Assembly (NCBI RefSeq): GCF_001909285.1
Contig: NZ_MRSV01000001.1
Span: forward strand, 701,331 to 765,330
Direction: 5' to 3'
Length of the DNA: 64,000 nt
Origin: Exiguobacterium profundum
Lineage (GTDB): Bacteria; Bacillota; Bacilli; Exiguobacteriales; Exiguobacteriaceae
This document shows, one piece after another, positions 21,748 through 53,860 of this stretch (positions within the stretch are counted from its first letter, which is position 1; every line of letters starts with the position of its first letter). The notes beneath the pieces were generated by a model, which saw only the letters and a list, made by a program, of their open reading frames with translations, made no database searches and was not told the origin of the DNA. A program made the translations under genes and the position numbers.

Positions 21748-22305
21748 TTATTCCGTAAGTTTACTTGAATGTATGACTTGTTTGTTGGCATCCAATGTTT
21801 CAAGTGACCACGAACCATCTGACGGTTGTGTTGTTTCAATGACATATGTCATGGTGTAGCTTTCAATTTCGGGATCGTTTACAAGAAAATCTTTTGAGAC
21901 ATCGTCACCGTTTAACCGTAAATAGACGACATCTTCCGGTCGCTCTTTAAGGTGAACACCGATGTACTCCATGTCTTCAACTCGAAGGATAACGAAATCA
22001 AAAGGCTGATTCGGCTCTGTTTGTTTCGTGACAGACCCTAAGTTCCCTGTTTCGACATCAATCTCAGCTAGACCGATGACGGAGCGGTCTTCATTTGTGT
22101 AAAAAGAGAGAACGGACTGTTCCATATTATGAATTTCAAACGTATACCAATTGTTCGTCGTCATATAACGATTCATTTCTTTTTCGGCATTTTCTTATGA
22201 GTCACCAGCCTGAATGTTAGTGTAGGTGTAAAGTCCGACACCGACTGCGATGGCTACGATGATGAGACCGGAAACGATTGTGAGTAAGATGATTCGCTTC
22301 GACAT
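21748..22305 (-). pseudogene. Membrane-anchored protein of unknown function, split by an in-frame TAA
   Basis: The intact frame would start at ATG 22305 behind an AGGAGG site, give one N-terminal membrane helix (SKRIILLTIVSGLIIVAIAV region), and continue into a soluble domain of about 150 residues. An in-frame TAA at 22195-22197 interrupts it after about 36 codons; the frame then stays open to 21748. The soluble part (rich in DVETGN, FVILRVEDMEYIG and EDVVYLRLNG strands) matches no family I know. The nearest internal ATG (22176) has no clear ribosome site. A CAA-to-TAA change would explain it. It could be a true pseudogene or a read error. Confidence 0.7.
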
Positions 22306-22334: not shown

Positions 22335-22375
22335 AACACCCCATGCTTCGCAAATGCGTGCATGGGGTGTTTGAT
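22335..22375 (-). terminator. Terminator after the DUF350 operon
   Basis: A 12-bp stem, AACACCCCATGC (22335-22346) with GCATGGGGTGTT (22360-22371); on the minus strand it is followed by CGTATTTATAAAAG, a weak U tract. Confidence 0.75.
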
Positions 22376-22788
22376 TAGTACGTCAAGCTCGCGGCGACGA
22401 TGATCCCGACGACGAGTGATGCGGCGAACAAGCTGAAACCGATGGCCATGTTGCCATTCTCGACTTCTTTTTCTAAATTCACGCCTGGTGTAAGGATGTA
22501 TTCAAACGTCCAGAACGCCAATACTTGGGCGGCGATACCGACGAGTCCCCAGATGAACGCATCGAGCAAGTTGACGCTGTTCGCCCAGACTGTATAAATG
22601 ACGATGGCGAGTCCTAGTGCTTTCCCCCAAAGTTTCAACGCGACAGCCATGTTGCCTTCTTTGATTAACTTGCGTTCCGAATATTTGGTCGTTAGTGCGA
22701 AGATGATGAGTCCCGCGAGAATGAGACCGAATCCTGTCCCGAGGTGGGCCAGGAAGCTTAAGATTGAATCGAGTGTGATGAATGTCAT
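22375..22788 (-). CDS. DUF350 family membrane protein (YjfL-like)
   Basis: A 137-residue protein with four predicted helices, repeating an ALxLWGKALGLAIVIY-like and GNMAIGFSLFAASLVVG-like half, the mark of DUF350. E. coli YjfL belongs here; no biochemical role is established. Start ATG at 22788 overlaps the ATP-grasp stop by four bases, so it is translationally coupled as the last of four genes. A frame extends to 22905 inside the ligase gene and is not used. Confidence 0.85.
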   Translation of the reverse strand: MTFITLDSILSFLAHLGTGFGLILAGLIIFALTTKYSERKLIKEGNMAVALKLWGKALGLAIVIYTVWANSVNLLDAFIWGLVGIAAQVLAFWTFEYILTPGVNLEKEVENGNMAIGFSLFAASLVVGIIVAASLTY

Positions 22789-24014
22789 GAGTTCGTCTCC
22801 TTTTGTATAGGTGTGCCAACGGCTAAGTAATAAGATTGGTTGTTCGTGATCATGCTGCCGGCGCGGACACCGAGTGCGGATGGGTGTCCGTTCAAGCAAA
22901 AACATCCGACCATGTAATGTGTCTCCATACGACCTTTGACGGTTGTCGTCATCCGTGTCGGGAGTTCGATGAACTGTTGGTACACGGCCGTTTCTTCCGC
23001 ATACGTCTGTAATGTTTCGCGATGAAACGGTTGACCATCTTTCGTATACAAGATGACGGAGTCCCCTTCACGTCCGAATGCCGGCTTTTTGACATAGTCC
23101 GATTCACCGAGAAACGGTGTGTCTTCTAAGTAAGTCGGTAAAAAATATGTTCCGATGATGTCGCGCTCGGCTTGATCGAATAGTGTCTCGGTCTCATACA
23201 ATTCCCAAATCAGCGCCTGTACGCCTTTCGATTGCATGAGAAACGCAGAGAGGGGATTGAGCAGTGACACGTATTTTTGTTGATCGAGTTCAAGTAACCG
23301 AATGCCAATTAAGTCTCCGTCTGGAGCCCGGTCGTCCACAAGGTGCTCAATCGGATATGTTTGGCGATATAAGATGTCAATTCGCTCACCCGATGGTGTG
23401 TAGACGCCGTCTTCGTCGACGAGTAAAGTGTGCAACGGTACGAATTCAGACGGTACGTCGAGCGTTTCTTGTAAAAATCGTGCCGTCCACTTGTCTTCGA
23501 TGTTATCATCATGTGCCGTAAAAACGATTTTCGGTGTGCCTTCTCGTTTGAGTCGATTCCACGCGGCGACGATCGCTTTCCGCAGCTCAATTTTCAGTTG
23601 GGGGGTGGCTTCCCTGTTCGGGTCGAGTAGACCAAACTCGGAAGCGACCACGCCGTTCACATCAAACAGCTCCTTAATGAAGGTCGGCGTATCTGCATTG
23701 AACTCCATCAACTTGAGTTGATCATCTTTCATGATCCAGTCGTAACGACCGATGATCGTCTCCTGCGGTATCGTCTTCTCCCGTAAGAACTGCAGACTCG
23801 CCTCAGGGTAACCAAGCAGTCGGAGCGTTTCGTCAGGTAGGGTGCGTAATAATTGATTCGTCTTCCGAAAAATCGAGTCAACCGCCTCGGTTGCCTCTCG
23901 GATAGAGGCAACCTGCGAGGCGGTCATCTCAAAACAATCATATAAGGCATATTCTTCATCGTTTAAATCGGGCCAAAAATAAGGGATTTGACTGTAAAGT
24001 TCGTCACGCGTCAT
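22785..24014 (-). CDS. Glutathionylspermidine synthase-like ATP-grasp ligase (YgiC/YjfC-like)
   Basis: A 409-residue member of the pre-ATP-grasp/GSPS family. Visible are IGRYDWIMKDDQLKLMEFNADTP split over 88-110 (substrate end, EFNADTP), KPAFGREGDSV (about 326-336, nucleotide-binding glycine loop with Lys), and the C-terminal VGCFCLNGHPSALGVRAG. Homologues form amide bonds; E. coli YgiC/YjfC are reported, as I recall, to lack true glutathionylspermidine synthetase activity, and the amidase domain of Gsp is absent here. Both junctions are ATGA overlaps. A role in modifying the neighbouring lipoprotein or a peptide is an inference. Confidence 0.85.
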   Translation of the reverse strand: MTRDELYSQIPYFWPDLNDEEYALYDCFEMTASQVASIREATEAVDSIFRKTNQLLRTLPDETLRLLGYPEASLQFLREKTIPQETIIGRYDWIMKDDQLKLMEFNADTPTFIKELFDVNGVVASEFGLLDPNREATPQLKIELRKAIVAAWNRLKREGTPKIVFTAHDDNIEDKWTARFLQETLDVPSEFVPLHTLLVDEDGVYTPSGERIDILYRQTYPIEHLVDDRAPDGDLIGIRLLELDQQKYVSLLNPLSAFLMQSKGVQALIWELYETETLFDQAERDIIGTYFLPTYLEDTPFLGESDYVKKPAFGREGDSVILYTKDGQPFHRETLQTYAEETAVYQQFIELPTRMTTTVKGRMETHYMVGCFCLNGHPSALGVRAGSMITNNQSYYLAVGTPIQKETNS

Positions 24015-24379
24015 CCGCCGAATCCACCTTTAGAGCCACTGCCGAGTCCAGATTTTGACGATCCTGAATTTGAGCCGTTCGATACGGCACCGGTCGCACC
24101 ACCGTTGGCTTTGTACGTCTTATACGACGAAGAGCTCTTCAACGCATTTTTTGAGCGGAATAGGCTACCGAGTAAGAAGTAGCTACCATAGTGCGGAGAG
24201 CGGTCGTCGTCACAATAATACGACTCGGTCTCGTCATCCCAGTCCCAATCGTCACATTCGTATCCGGTCGGTTCTTCCGGGAGTGCCGCCTCTTCATATT
24301 CATCCCCACCGCACGCGGCAAGGGAAGTGGTCAATACCGCAACGGATAGTCCGCTTAAAATTTTCTTGCTTGTCTTCAT
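24011..24379 (-). CDS. YgiB-like lipoprotein with Gly/Ser-rich tail
   Basis: A 122-residue secreted lipoprotein: signal peptide with lipobox LAAC (Cys23), an acidic middle (about 25-65) rich in Asp, Trp and Tyr with two Cys, then a ~40-residue tail made mostly of Gly, Ser, Asn and Lys that ends SKGGFGG. This layout and its place before a YgiC-type ligase recall E. coli YgiB/YjfM (DUF1190-like), though sequence identity looks low. It overlaps both neighbours by four bases. The tail looks like an exposed, flexible acceptor; its role is unknown. Confidence 0.65.
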   Translation of the reverse strand: MKTSKKILSGLSVAVLTTSLAACGGDEYEEAALPEEPTGYECDDWDWDDETESYYCDDDRSPHYGSYFLLGSLFRSKNALKSSSSYKTYKANGGATGAVSNGSNSGSSKSGLGSGSKGGFGG

Positions 24380-24834
24380 GTTGATTCCTCCAATTCATAA
24401 CCAGTCGGTGTGACGTAGATAACATACACACCACGATCTTCATCTGTTTCTGCTGAATCGCGCTCATATTCTTTACCGGCGACATACAAGTACTGGCTTC
24501 CGAGCATGGCGAGTGCATCAAGGTGGCGGTCGACGTAATAGGCTTCGAGTAATGGGTTGTCAAACCGGTCGTCTAGCGTGCGGATTTCGACTTTGATGTC
24601 GCTCGTTTCGTGCTTGTCCATCGGTCCCTCTGTATAGCGATCGACATAAATTAAAAAGTATTGATCGCCTTCAAGGGCAGACGAGCGTTGTTTGTAGGTC
24701 ATGCCGTCTTTGACGAAAAACTCACATTCACGACGAGCTAGCACTTCGTCTAAGCCGAGAGACGTGTAATGGTATAGTGGTTCGAACGATAATTCATTTT
24801 TATAGAGACGATACTCTAAGACGATGGAGTTCAT
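24376..24834 (-). CDS. Hypothetical protein, first gene of the ATP-grasp/DUF350 operon
   Basis: A 152-residue soluble protein without signal peptide or membrane helix. It alternates beta-type strands with acidic turns (VLEYRLYKNELSFEPL, YFLIYVDRYTEG, GVYVIYVTPTGYELEE). I do not recognise a family; by position it may correspond to the YjfK/DUF2491- or DUF4178-type proteins found in comparable clusters, but I cannot confirm this. ATG follows AAGGAAGG. It opens the four-gene coupled operon and is divergent from the K+ channel gene, 106 bases away. Confidence 0.6.
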   Translation of the reverse strand: MNSIVLEYRLYKNELSFEPLYHYTSLGLDEVLARRECEFFVKDGMTYKQRSSALEGDQYFLIYVDRYTEGPMDKHETSDIKVEIRTLDDRFDNPLLEAYYVDRHLDALAMLGSQYLYVAGKEYERDSAETDEDRGVYVIYVTPTGYELEEST

Positions 24835-24940
24835 AAGTCAGTCCTTCCTTTTTTCTTCTTTTTTGGAATCACCATCAAAATGGTTTCGTGAATCTTTTTG
24901 TGGTTACGTTTAGTATATAAGAGAGAAGGAGGGGGAAACA

Positions 24941-25960
24941 GTGCATATCTTATTTCGTGTGTGGAAAGGGTTAGCGAAATTATCATTTTTGAATGTCGTC
25001 TTAGCTTCGATTGGCATCATTATCTTAGGAACCGTGCTCGGTTATGTTTTAGAACCAGAGACATTCGGATCACTGTTTGATTCGTTCTGGTGGACGATGA
25101 CGACATTGACGACCGTCGGATACGGGGACTTTTATCCGTCCTCCGTGGCAGGGCGATGGCTCGGGATATTCTTATTCCTATTCGGGATTGGGATTATCGG
25201 GGCGTTGATTGGAAAATTGGTTGAAATCGGTGCGACGTTTCAACGGCTAAAACGGGAGGGAAGACTAGTGTATCGTGGAGAAGGACATTATGTGTATATC
25301 GGGTGGTCCCCGAAGACGAAGAAAGCAATCGATGAAGTGCTTAACTACGAACCGAAAGCAGAGATCGTATTGATTGATCAGTTAGTTGAGGAACCGTACG
25401 TGCACGATCAAGTTCACTTCGTATCAGGCGATGCTTCGGATGAAGCGGTATTGCTGCAAGCAAACGTCTTGAAGGCGCGACGCGTCGCGATTTTTGCGGA
25501 TGCCCGTATCACGGAGACGTTACTCGCCGATGGGAAGTCGTTATTAATCGCGTCAGCGGTCGAGGCACTCTCTTCTGAGTATCAGGTGGACTTGCACACG
25601 GTCGTCGAAGTGTGTGAAGAAAGAAATATCTCGAAATTTAAACACGTCCGCGTCGACGATTTTATTTTAGCGAACGACTCGGTCTCCCTCTTGATGGCAA
25701 AAGCGACGTTACAACCTGGAACGACAGCAATTTTCCGTCAGTTGTTGAGCAAACAGTCAGGTGGGAACATTCAAGCGTTGAAACCAAAAGTCGAGTGGCA
25801 GAATGTTCGACAAGCAAATACAGCGTTACTTGAATCAGGGGTGACACTCATCGCGGTCAATGACCGCTTGGATGTGGCGACGATGCTCGATTTGCCGCTT
25901 CAGGAAACAGACATGTTATATGTCGTCTGTCATGACGATGTATTTGAACGATTATCGTAA
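24941..25960 (+). CDS. Two-helix potassium channel with TrkA-N (RCK) domains
   Basis: A 339-residue channel: helix ~18-38, pore loop with selectivity filter TTVGYGD (57-63), second helix ~74-95, then two RCK-type lobes. The first lobe lacks a clean GxGxxG but has the YIGWSPKTKKAID turn and the LIDQ/VSGDASDEAVLLQA pattern. Resembles B. subtilis YugO, used in K+ signalling in biofilms. Starts with GTG behind AAGGAGGGGG. It is divergent from the ATP-grasp operon; such channels recur beside YgiC-type ligases, suggesting a functional link. Confidence 0.88.
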   Translation: MHILFRVWKGLAKLSFLNVVLASIGIIILGTVLGYVLEPETFGSLFDSFWWTMTTLTTVGYGDFYPSSVAGRWLGIFLFLFGIGIIGALIGKLVEIGATFQRLKREGRLVYRGEGHYVYIGWSPKTKKAIDEVLNYEPKAEIVLIDQLVEEPYVHDQVHFVSGDASDEAVLLQANVLKARRVAIFADARITETLLADGKSLLIASAVEALSSEYQVDLHTVVEVCEERNISKFKHVRVDDFILANDSVSLLMAKATLQPGTTAIFRQLLSKQSGGNIQALKPKVEWQNVRQANTALLESGVTLIAVNDRLDVATMLDLPLQETDMLYVVCHDDVFERLS

Positions 25961-25971
25961 GGAGTGAAACC

Positions 25972-27099
25972 ATGCATAACGGAACGTTTATCCGAAAGAT
26001 GACACGTATGCAAAACGTGCAACGGTGGGATGAATATGCCCCCCATTATCATGATAACGCAGCGAGTCATAGCTTTCGTGTCGCGGTCTTTAGCTTGATC
26101 GCGGCTTATGTGGAAAAAGAGAACGGACGTGAAGTCGATTTGCTCGATTTACTCGGGAAAGCCATTTTCCACGACATGAATGAAGTCCAGACGGGCCCGA
26201 TCATGCACCGGAAAAAAAAAGAACCGACCTTGATCGGTCACATCGAGCGTATGGAACGAACAGCGAGTCTCGGTCTTGTCGAGTTGCTGTCGCAATCATT
26301 ACGTCCTCACTTTCATCGTTTCGTGGTGGAAGCGGAAGATGATTCGTTCGAAGGTCGAATCGTGGACGGAATTGATTCGTTCGATGCGATGTTGTTCGTG
26401 CGACGAGAAGTCGCGCACGGCTCTCCGCACTTTGATGACAAGCTAGAAGAGATGAAAGCCGCACTCCGACATCATCCGATTGATTCGGTCCGCTGGCTGT
26501 TCGACCAGGTCGAGGCAGAAACGGATGTGTTGCGATTCATCGAGAACGTCATGCGGATGGATAGTGTCCGTCGCTGGAAAGGTCGCTTTAACACGATTGA
26601 CGACAACGATGCGATTCATGGTTTCCGGGCTGCCGCGCTCGGTATGTTCAGTGGGCTCTTAGAGCGTGAGAAGTACGACGTCGATGTCGATGTCGCCGAA
26701 CTCGTGGCTCGTCTTCTCTGTCACGATTTAGTTGAAGGGGTGACCGGAGACGTGCTCGGTCCAGTCAAACATTCGACGCAAGAGACGGGGGCTGCGTTTG
26801 AGGCATACGAGCGAGCGGAAAGTGAACGTCTGCTTGGACTGTTGCCTGAGTATATGCAACCGGCGTTCCGTCGATATATGGCTGACTCGAAAGACGATAC
26901 GTATGAGGGAATGCTCGTCGATATGATGGACAAGCTTGATGCGCTCATCAAGATGAACATGGAGCGGAAGATGAACGGGGCCGAGTATGAGGTCACGTAT
27001 CGCGAGCAGCTCCGTAAAGTCCAGATGCGATATGAGAATCCAAGCATGATTTTCTTCCTGGCGTATATCTTGCATGATTTAGACTATGTCACTAGTTAA
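25972..27099 (+). CDS. Tandem HD-domain protein (YfbR-like, duplicated)
   Basis: A 375-residue protein built of two similar halves, each an HD-hydrolase module. Half one has RMQNVQRWDEYAPHYHDN, His33, and His67-Asp68 in IFHDMNE; half two (from about 190) has RMDSVRRWKGRFNTIDDN, HGFRAAA and LLCHDLVEG. A distal Asp (IVDGIDSFDA; LVDMMDKLDA) is kept in both. Single-domain YfbR enzymes are 5'-deoxynucleotidases; substrate here is unknown. Eleven bases after the K+ channel stop and behind AAGGAG, so probably co-transcribed with it. Confidence 0.8.
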   Translation: MHNGTFIRKMTRMQNVQRWDEYAPHYHDNAASHSFRVAVFSLIAAYVEKENGREVDLLDLLGKAIFHDMNEVQTGPIMHRKKKEPTLIGHIERMERTASLGLVELLSQSLRPHFHRFVVEAEDDSFEGRIVDGIDSFDAMLFVRREVAHGSPHFDDKLEEMKAALRHHPIDSVRWLFDQVEAETDVLRFIENVMRMDSVRRWKGRFNTIDDNDAIHGFRAAALGMFSGLLEREKYDVDVDVAELVARLLCHDLVEGVTGDVLGPVKHSTQETGAAFEAYERAESERLLGLLPEYMQPAFRRYMADSKDDTYEGMLVDMMDKLDALIKMNMERKMNGAEYEVTYREQLRKVQMRYENPSMIFFLAYILHDLDYVTS

Positions 27100-53020: not shown

Positions 53021-53860
53021 ATGGACCAAAAATTAAAGTTATGGTTTACGGAGCACCAAACAGAAGATTACGGAATTACGTTCCGTGTAAACCACGTTTA
53101 TGAGAGCGAACAAACGGAGTTTCAACGACTAGAGATGGTCGAAACGGACGAGTTCGGAACGATGTTGTTACTTGACGGGATGGTCATGACGACGGATAAG
53201 GACGAATTCGTCTATCACGAGATGGTCGCACACGTCCCACTCTTTACACACCCGAATCCGAAGCATGTGCTCGTAGTCGGTGGGGGAGATGGCGGTGTCA
53301 TCCGTGAAATTATGAAACACCCATCAGTAGAAAAAGCAGTTCTCGTGGATATCGACGGGAAAGTCATTGAATATTCGAAGAAATACTTACCAAATATTGC
53401 GGGTGAGCTCGATAACCCGCGTGTTGAAGTCATCGTCGGTGACGGATTCATGCATATCGCGAAGTCAGAAAACGAGTACGACGTCATCATGGTCGACTCG
53501 ACTGAACCGGTCGGACCAGCAGCCAACCTCTTCACAAAAGGTTTCTATGCAGGGATTTCAAAAGCGCTCAAAGAGGATGGCATCTTTGTGGCTCAAACGG
53601 ATAACCCATGGTTCACACCAGAACTCATCCAAACGGTTCAACGTGACGTGAAGGAAATCTTCCCAATCACGAAGTTGTACACAGCAAACGTACCAACGTA
53701 CCCGAGTGGCATGTGGACGTTCACGATCGGTTCGAAGAAATACGACCCGGAACAAGTATCAGCTGAGCGGTTCCATGACATCGAAACGAAGTACTATACG
53801 CCGAAGCTTCACAATGCAGCGTTCGTTCTTCCGAAATTCGTGGAGGACTTAACAAAATGA
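53021..53860 (+). CDS. speE: Spermidine synthase
   Basis: Transfers aminopropyl from decarboxylated SAM to putrescine, producing spermidine and 5'-methylthioadenosine, the starting compound of the mtn pathway in this window. A 279-residue protein with [13 protein letters not shown] (SAM pocket), [18 protein letters not shown] and [10 protein letters not shown]. Start ATG 53021 behind AAAGGGG; an upstream open stretch from 52844 lacks a ribosome site. Overlaps speB by ATGA. Confidence 0.95.

Follow-up and report, generated by a model that had tools for sequence, protein, structure and literature searches.

Organization of the locus

We analysed a 64,000-nucleotide stretch of the 2.9 Mb genome of Exiguobacterium profundum (contig NZ_MRSV01000001.1, positions 701,331 to 765,330; hereafter the window), in which an ATP-grasp ligase is encoded together with a lipoprotein ending in a Gly/Ser-rich tail, a DUF350 membrane protein, a 152-amino-acid (aa) protein and, on the opposite strand, a K+ channel. 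The features of this locus are listed below in window coordinates.

22375-22788, minus strand: DUF350 (YjfL-type) membrane protein, 137 aa, fourth gene of the operon (PF03994, E = 2.3e-36)
22785-24014, minus strand: GSP_synth-type ATP-grasp ligase, 409 aa, third gene of the operon (PF03738, E = 2.1e-54)
24011-24379, minus strand: lipoprotein, 122 aa, second gene of the operon, presumed substrate of the ligase (lipobox Cys23; Gly/Ser tail)
24014-24055, minus strand: codons of the C-terminal tail of the lipoprotein, residues 109-122, K-S-G-L-G-S-G-S-K-G-G-F-G-G-COOH (best-conserved columns of alignment A2)
24376-24834, minus strand: 152-aa protein (U152), first gene of the operon, predicted to be cytosolic (AlphaFold2 (AF2) model with two repeated beta-beta-alpha-beta-beta-beta halves)
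24835-24940, no strand: intergenic region common to the operon and the divergent K+ channel gene
24941-25960, plus strand: two-transmembrane K+ channel with an RCK (TrkA_N) domain, 339 aa, GTG start (PF07885, E = 1.9e-16; PF02254, E = 8.6e-7)

The four minus-strand genes are linked by 4-nt ATGA overlaps (22785-22788, 24011-24014 and 24376-24379). A preliminary description of this DNA had reported these overlaps, the four genes and the divergent channel gene, all of which are present; it had also read a fixed stoichiometry from the overlaps, which suggest translational coupling only. The open reading frame (ORF) listed for DUF350 from 22905 is too long at its 5' end, the likelier start being the ATG at 22788, with AAAGGAG upstream. 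The DUF350 protein scores 125 bits versus a Pfam cut-off of 26 bits for PF03994, and a scan of the window proteins returned no Pfam match for either the lipoprotein or the 152-aa protein.

A conserved C-terminal tail in the protein encoded beside the ligase

The main new result is that the exported protein encoded next to the ligase carries the C-terminal motif [RK][GS]G[FIL]G...GG-COOH. Among 36 homologues of the lipoprotein (alignment A2), the sole invariant residues are C23 of the lipobox, C42, C56, G111 and G113; the conserved Cys42 and Cys56 accompany an Asp-rich motif, and the tail columns are the best-conserved region of the alignment. Where Bacilli have a neighbour other than this lipoprotein family, a small exported protein with a like end is usually found there instead.

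A tail was scored when G-[FILVMYW]-G occurred in the last 45 residues, the last residue was G or S and the last 15 residues held at least six G or S. Our first sample comprised 71 loci, drawn from Bacilli, from plasmids of Pseudomonadota, Actinomycetota and Cyanobacteriota, and from E. coli, with a gap to the ligase match of at most 200 bases. A tailed ORF lies directly upstream of the ligase in 57 of these loci, so that the tail is found in 57 of 127 adjacent ORFs versus 15 of 4498 others, 7 of these 15 being proteins of the same type encoded a little farther away. The second sample, drawn from new data, held 80 nearly all actinobacterial loci, with one Acidobacteriota metagenome-assembled genome, the permitted gap being widened to 600 bases; here the tail is directly upstream in all 77 loci with enough flank (control, 10/2806). 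The background rate among other ORFs is about 0.35%. Pooling 137 loci gave the motif [RK][GS]G[FIL]G followed, after a median of 9 residues, by GG (103), GS (21) or SS (8), with R or K in first place in 115 tails and F, I or L in 126. Although the rest of the protein diverges, its tail is retained next to the ligase in five phyla.

Two such tail peptides are ...KSGLGSGSKGGFGG and ...RGGYGRSSSARGHWGG, the latter being the end of E. coli YjfM. In E. coli, YgiB ends ...TRGGFGES...SSRSMGG and is encoded directly upstream of ygiC, and YjfM ends ...SRGGYGRSSSARGHWGG and is encoded directly upstream of yjfC. The window lipoprotein shares with YgiB and YjfM the lipobox and the G-x-G...GG tail beside a ligase, which is a common trait and not proof of homology. 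Its membership of DUF1190 is not backed by Pfam, as the window protein is unmatched by PF06693 and only one of the 36 homologues matches, at E = 0.02. The view that the bodies of the tailed proteins are wholly unrelated to each other proved too strong, as most of them join one loose cluster (see below).

Two controls fit a role of the tail as ligase substrate: no tailed ORF occurs near E. coli gss (0/58), whose product has glutathione as its substrate, and an Azospirillum homologue of the ligase (L162) that lacks the catalytic residues is also without a tailed neighbour. The preliminary description had suggested that the ligase acts on the lipoprotein, and the conservation of the tail argues for this suggestion.

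Two individual loci may be added. At one of them (L114, 5452-8480), DUF350 lies between two ligase genes, the order being lipoprotein, ligase, DUF350, ligase, with the tailed gene directly upstream of the first ligase only. At another (L160, 4263-4769), the tailed lipoprotein bears the PLSDB annotation 'tRNA-dihydrouridine synthase', which is probably wrong.

Relationship of the ligase to Gss, YgiC and YjfC

The ligase scores 185.6 bits for PF03738 (GSP_synth) versus a curated cut-off of 29.3 bits, and it matches E. coli YjfC, Gss and YgiC best, aligning with all three. Nine residues (R90, D92, E104, N106, K263, K310, R315, Q346 and R384) are identical to the aligned Gss residues R316, D318, E330, N332, K498, K533, R538, Q568 and R598 (9/9), which we take, partly on the basis of the Gss structures, to be catalytic or ligand residues of Gss. 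The AF2 model (predicted local distance difference test, pLDDT, 94.9) has YjfC as its first match in the PDB (7uk6; E = 2e-24, TM-score 0.74/0.77), after which it matches Gss and YgiC, with 7uk8 at E = 1.9e-21. Neither an amidase domain nor a signal peptide is seen in the 409-aa sequence, and an assignment as bifunctional glutathionylspermidine synthetase/amidase fails (55.7 versus 882 bits for NF007801), the amidase part being absent.

RefSeq names YgiC and YjfC peptide--spermidine ligases, with no protein substrate given in these names. Peptide-spermidine ligase activity is cited in a passage of PMC12568646 that points to Pederick 2023, and according to PMC12506659, Sui 2012 ruled out that YgiC has Gss activity. 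Both speD (S-adenosylmethionine (AdoMet) decarboxylase) and speE (spermidine synthase) are present in the genome. Together with the RefSeq names, these two genes lend support to another suggestion of the preliminary description, that the group added may be polyamine-like. As for their positions, a spermidine synthase domain (PF01564, E = 7e-78) is encoded within the window at about 53204-53740 on the plus strand, roughly 29 kb from the locus, and the AdoMet decarboxylase gene lies elsewhere in the genome.

Conservation of the gene set and the 152-aa family

The PF03738 ligase domain was found in 37/37 sampled genomes of the family to which the window belongs, in 45 of 61 relatives and in 170 of 399 Bacilli. 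We surveyed 60 neighbourhoods of 5 to 16 kb each with profiles built from the window proteins and found the order 152-aa protein, lipoprotein, ligase, DUF350 again across many families; a gene-neighbourhood survey had been proposed as a check on the set, which is thus not confined to this genome. Across the 399 Bacilli genomes, full matches to the 152-aa family (138/138) and strong matches to the lipoprotein family (136/136) all fall within ligase-positive genomes (Fisher p ~1e-75 for the co-occurrence of both families with the ligase, a value that ignores shared ancestry). The association of these genes is not due to chance.

The 152-aa protein has no relatives in Pfam, NCBIfam or the PDB, and Pfam is also blank for 33 members of its family. 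Two like halves are visible in its AF2 model (pLDDT 92.4) and are confirmed as alike by hhalign (probability 98%, E = 9e-14); E83, D131 and R134 are invariant among the 33 homologues. No known fold was convincing over the full length, the best Foldseek match having E = 1.7e-3 and a TM-score of 0.23. With VIA-align 2, Z stayed below 5 and single halves matched beta-grasp-like pieces, which proves nothing. Identity with DUF2491/YjfK was rejected, as hhalign of the 33-sequence profile against the single sequence of E. coli YjfK gave a probability of 0.1%. A 75-aa Paenibacillus-like protein aligns weakly with one half (probability 35%, E = 4e-4) and may represent a single half of the family. The preliminary description had left this gene unassigned; it still falls in no known family but, judging from these sequence comparisons, it represents a new duplicated family that is restricted to this operon and in which no similarity to YjfK is detected.

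The K+ channel and the surroundings of the operon

The selectivity filter TVGYGD is encoded at 25112-25129 and is invariant in 8 channel sequences, and the best sequence match in the PDB is MthK (E = 2e-18). By this filter and its Ion_trans_2 and TrkA_N domains, the product of 24941-25960 is classed as an RCK-type two-transmembrane K+ channel. The gene begins 106 bases from the operon on the opposite strand. The intervening region is partly conserved within the genus, and a promoter scan of 24835-24940 gave no sigma-70-like sites above chance.

In 38 genomes, namely 19/19 of the same genus and 19 in five other families, the ligase and a member of the channel family are no more than 6 kb apart, so that the channel is clearly an optional part of the module. 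Its functional coupling to the module, as in the effect on K+ flux or K+ signalling put forward in the preliminary description, loses ground through this limited distribution and seems to us possible, at somewhat under even odds. It is also possible, if doubtful, that the channel is an uncoupled neighbour held close by shared regulation or descent, which would be compatible with a ligase acting on the lipoprotein. The channel is missing near the ligase in 132 of the 170 ligase-positive genomes, and 48 more channel matches in such genomes sit away from the ligase, as expected of an uncoupled neighbour; yet the adjacency repeats in six families of Bacilli and in Rhizobium, and has been published (in a section of PMC11237479). 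Moreover, this genome has only three Ion_trans_2 genes, so that adjacency by chance (roughly 0.2%) is unlikely.

In a congener (G013; L048, 8804-9331), the channel lacks residues 136-287, most of the RCK domain, and the remaining operon is intact. A joint loss of channel and DUF350 in this genome was considered and rejected, as DUF350 is intact and only the channel has an internal deletion.

The genes flanking the set encode a flavohaemoglobin-like protein, a tandem YfbR-like HD protein, a PadR regulator and a DUF2812 protein, and look unrelated to it. The HD gene (25972-27099, plus strand), directly 3' of the channel, encodes a single protein with two tandem YfbR-like 5'-deoxynucleotidase HD domains, and its position is retained in 7/7 sampled genomes of the genus. 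Just past DUF350, codon 37 of a gene of about 186 codons (21748-22305, minus strand) is an in-frame TAA, whereas the frame stays open in a close relative (L039); this may mark a pseudogene in this genome or reflect a sequencing error. PADLOC returned no matches for phage defence.

Proposed mechanism

We propose that the locus makes a surface lipoprotein whose Gly-Gly tail receives a polyamine from the neighbouring ligase, the two forming an enzyme-substrate pair, and we give this reading a probability of roughly 0.6. In the Gss reaction, spermidine is attached to the glycine carboxylate of glutathione. Since the ligase has the same catalytic residues as Gss, and a protein ending in Gly-Gly or Gly-Ser is encoded directly before it in five phyla, the same reaction on that C-terminus would be the simplest interpretation. 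The cytosolic ligase would activate the C-terminal carboxylate of the co-translated prolipoprotein, the tail K-S-G-L-G-x(7)-G-G serving as recognition and acceptor site, with its conserved upstream element for recognition. An amine, most likely spermidine, would then be joined to the tail, that is, the Gss reaction carried out on a protein instead of glutathione. The tail emerges last, and translation of ligase and lipoprotein is probably coupled, which could allow modification in the cytosol ahead of export. Once exported and lipidated, the modified lipoprotein would display a flexible tail with positive charge on the outer side of the membrane. The DUF350 protein and the duplicated 152-aa protein would be dedicated partners, the former, we would guess, in the membrane and the latter as a cytosolic regulator or adaptor. 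A K+ channel joins the module in this genus and in some other lineages, and from this the modified lipoprotein probably acts in an envelope or ion stress response. Taken separately, that the tail is the protein substrate of the ligase is probable from its conservation, and that the amine is a polyamine has about an even chance.

Several observations weigh against this proposal. The acceptor is lipidated and exported and the ligase seemingly cytosolic, so that the tail must be modified before or during export. Ser replaces Gly as the last residue in about a quarter of the tails (31/137). Furthermore, 123 of the 137 tailed proteins join one loose single-linkage cluster; many of them may therefore be distantly homologous, and the tail could be inherited for a reason that does not involve the ligase. 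Finally, the channel is near the ligase in only 38/170 ligase-positive genomes.

Alternatively, the product of the ligase could be a small soluble peptide-polyamine conjugate, like that of Gss, and the lipoprotein a separate envelope component whose tail is only a docking or regulatory element. The best-known members of the family, Gss and trypanothione synthetase, share the fold and use glutathione, and the 'peptide' ligase names of YgiC and YjfC carry no protein substrate; yet Gss itself has no tailed neighbour, the tail persists beside the ligase across the five phyla despite a diverging protein body, and a free carboxylate after Gly-Gly resembles an acceptor more than a dock, all of which make this alternative unlikely. 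It is more improbable still that the tail has a structural or sorting role, by binding DUF350, the cell wall or some other part of the envelope, while the ligase modifies something else: Gly/Ser-rich tails are common as linkers and DUF350 often adjoins the same genes, but in L043-L047 the tail and the ligase occur with no DUF350 or K+ channel detected nearby, and the [RK]GG[FIL]G element with its Gly-Gly or Gly-Ser end is more specific than a linker requires.

Polyamines block some K+ channels. Extending the enzyme-substrate reading, at least five phyla might possess a dedicated polyamination of the C-terminal Gly-Gly or Gly-Ser of surface proteins, with ligase and substrate encoded side by side, and in some lineages the polyamine-tipped tail might target a partner K+ channel, say by plugging its pore as a tethered blocker or by sensing charge; we regard this broader scheme as just short of an even proposition. 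If true, widespread 'unknown' lipoproteins and ligases would gain a biochemical function, C-terminal polyamination of surface proteins, published polyamine/K+-channel operons would gain a testable mechanism, and the 152-aa family would gain a defined context. The tail next to the ligase in five phyla gives YgiC/YjfC-type ligases a candidate protein substrate that can be tested directly and cheaply, including in E. coli K-12 (YgiB, YjfM).

Comparison with known systems

A proposal of the tail as substrate was not found in full-text literature searches, which did not extend to Pederick 2023, Sui 2012, Iyer 2009 and Li 2019, and the sources searched named no physiological protein substrate of YgiC or YjfC. 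The linkage itself has a precedent in SUMO and ubiquitin, whose Gly-Gly carboxylate becomes conjugated to spermidine according to PMC12270671, in which the mass value used for spermidine is +127.147 Da. There too a polyamine is carried on a C-terminal Gly-Gly carboxylate of a protein, but the conjugates are eukaryotic and made by E1/E2 enzymes, and we claim no homology. Gss (PDB 2io7-2ioa) shares with the window ligase the ATP-grasp fold and the nine conserved catalytic or ligand residues, but differs in having an N-terminal amidase and no tailed neighbour.

The resemblance to E. coli ygiBC and yjfIJKLMC, already pointed out in the preliminary description, holds for fold, catalytic residues and gene content: in both E. 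coli loci a lipobox protein ending ...GG[FY]G...GG is encoded directly upstream of the ligase, and the yjf operon also has DUF350 (yjfL). On the other hand, the window locus lacks PspA (yjfJ) and YjfI, its 152-aa protein is not detectably YjfK/DUF2491, its lipoprotein is not DUF1190 by Pfam, and it adds a K+ channel gene.

The channel, which the preliminary description had named as a point of difference from the E. coli loci, is indeed present, but is less unusual than it seemed. In the section of Ravi et al. (2024; PMC11237479) on such operons, a GSPS-like ATP-grasp ligase is described with a K+ channel, DUF350, DUF1190 and DUF2491, with or without PspA, and tied to polyamine metabolism and envelope stress; a Rhizobium locus in our data (L154) is a channel-containing case of this type. 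The PSP-linked 'third group' operon of that section resembles the window locus in its GSPS-like ligase, K+ channel with a ligand-sensing domain, DUF350 and lipoprotein. It differs in its CesT/Tir-PspA, DUF2491, DUF1190 and adjacent AdoMet decarboxylase, which the window locus lacks; by Pfam, none of the ten window genes between 20.6 and 28.1 kb encodes the CesT/Tir-PspA dyad or a DUF4247/DUF2617 or band-7 substitute. The 152-aa family is not among the partners named in that section, which does not mention the tail either. As channel-containing modules have thus been published, the window set is not a first case of this kind but a variant in Bacilli that lacks PspA/CesT and has a lipoprotein family of its own as well as the 152-aa family.

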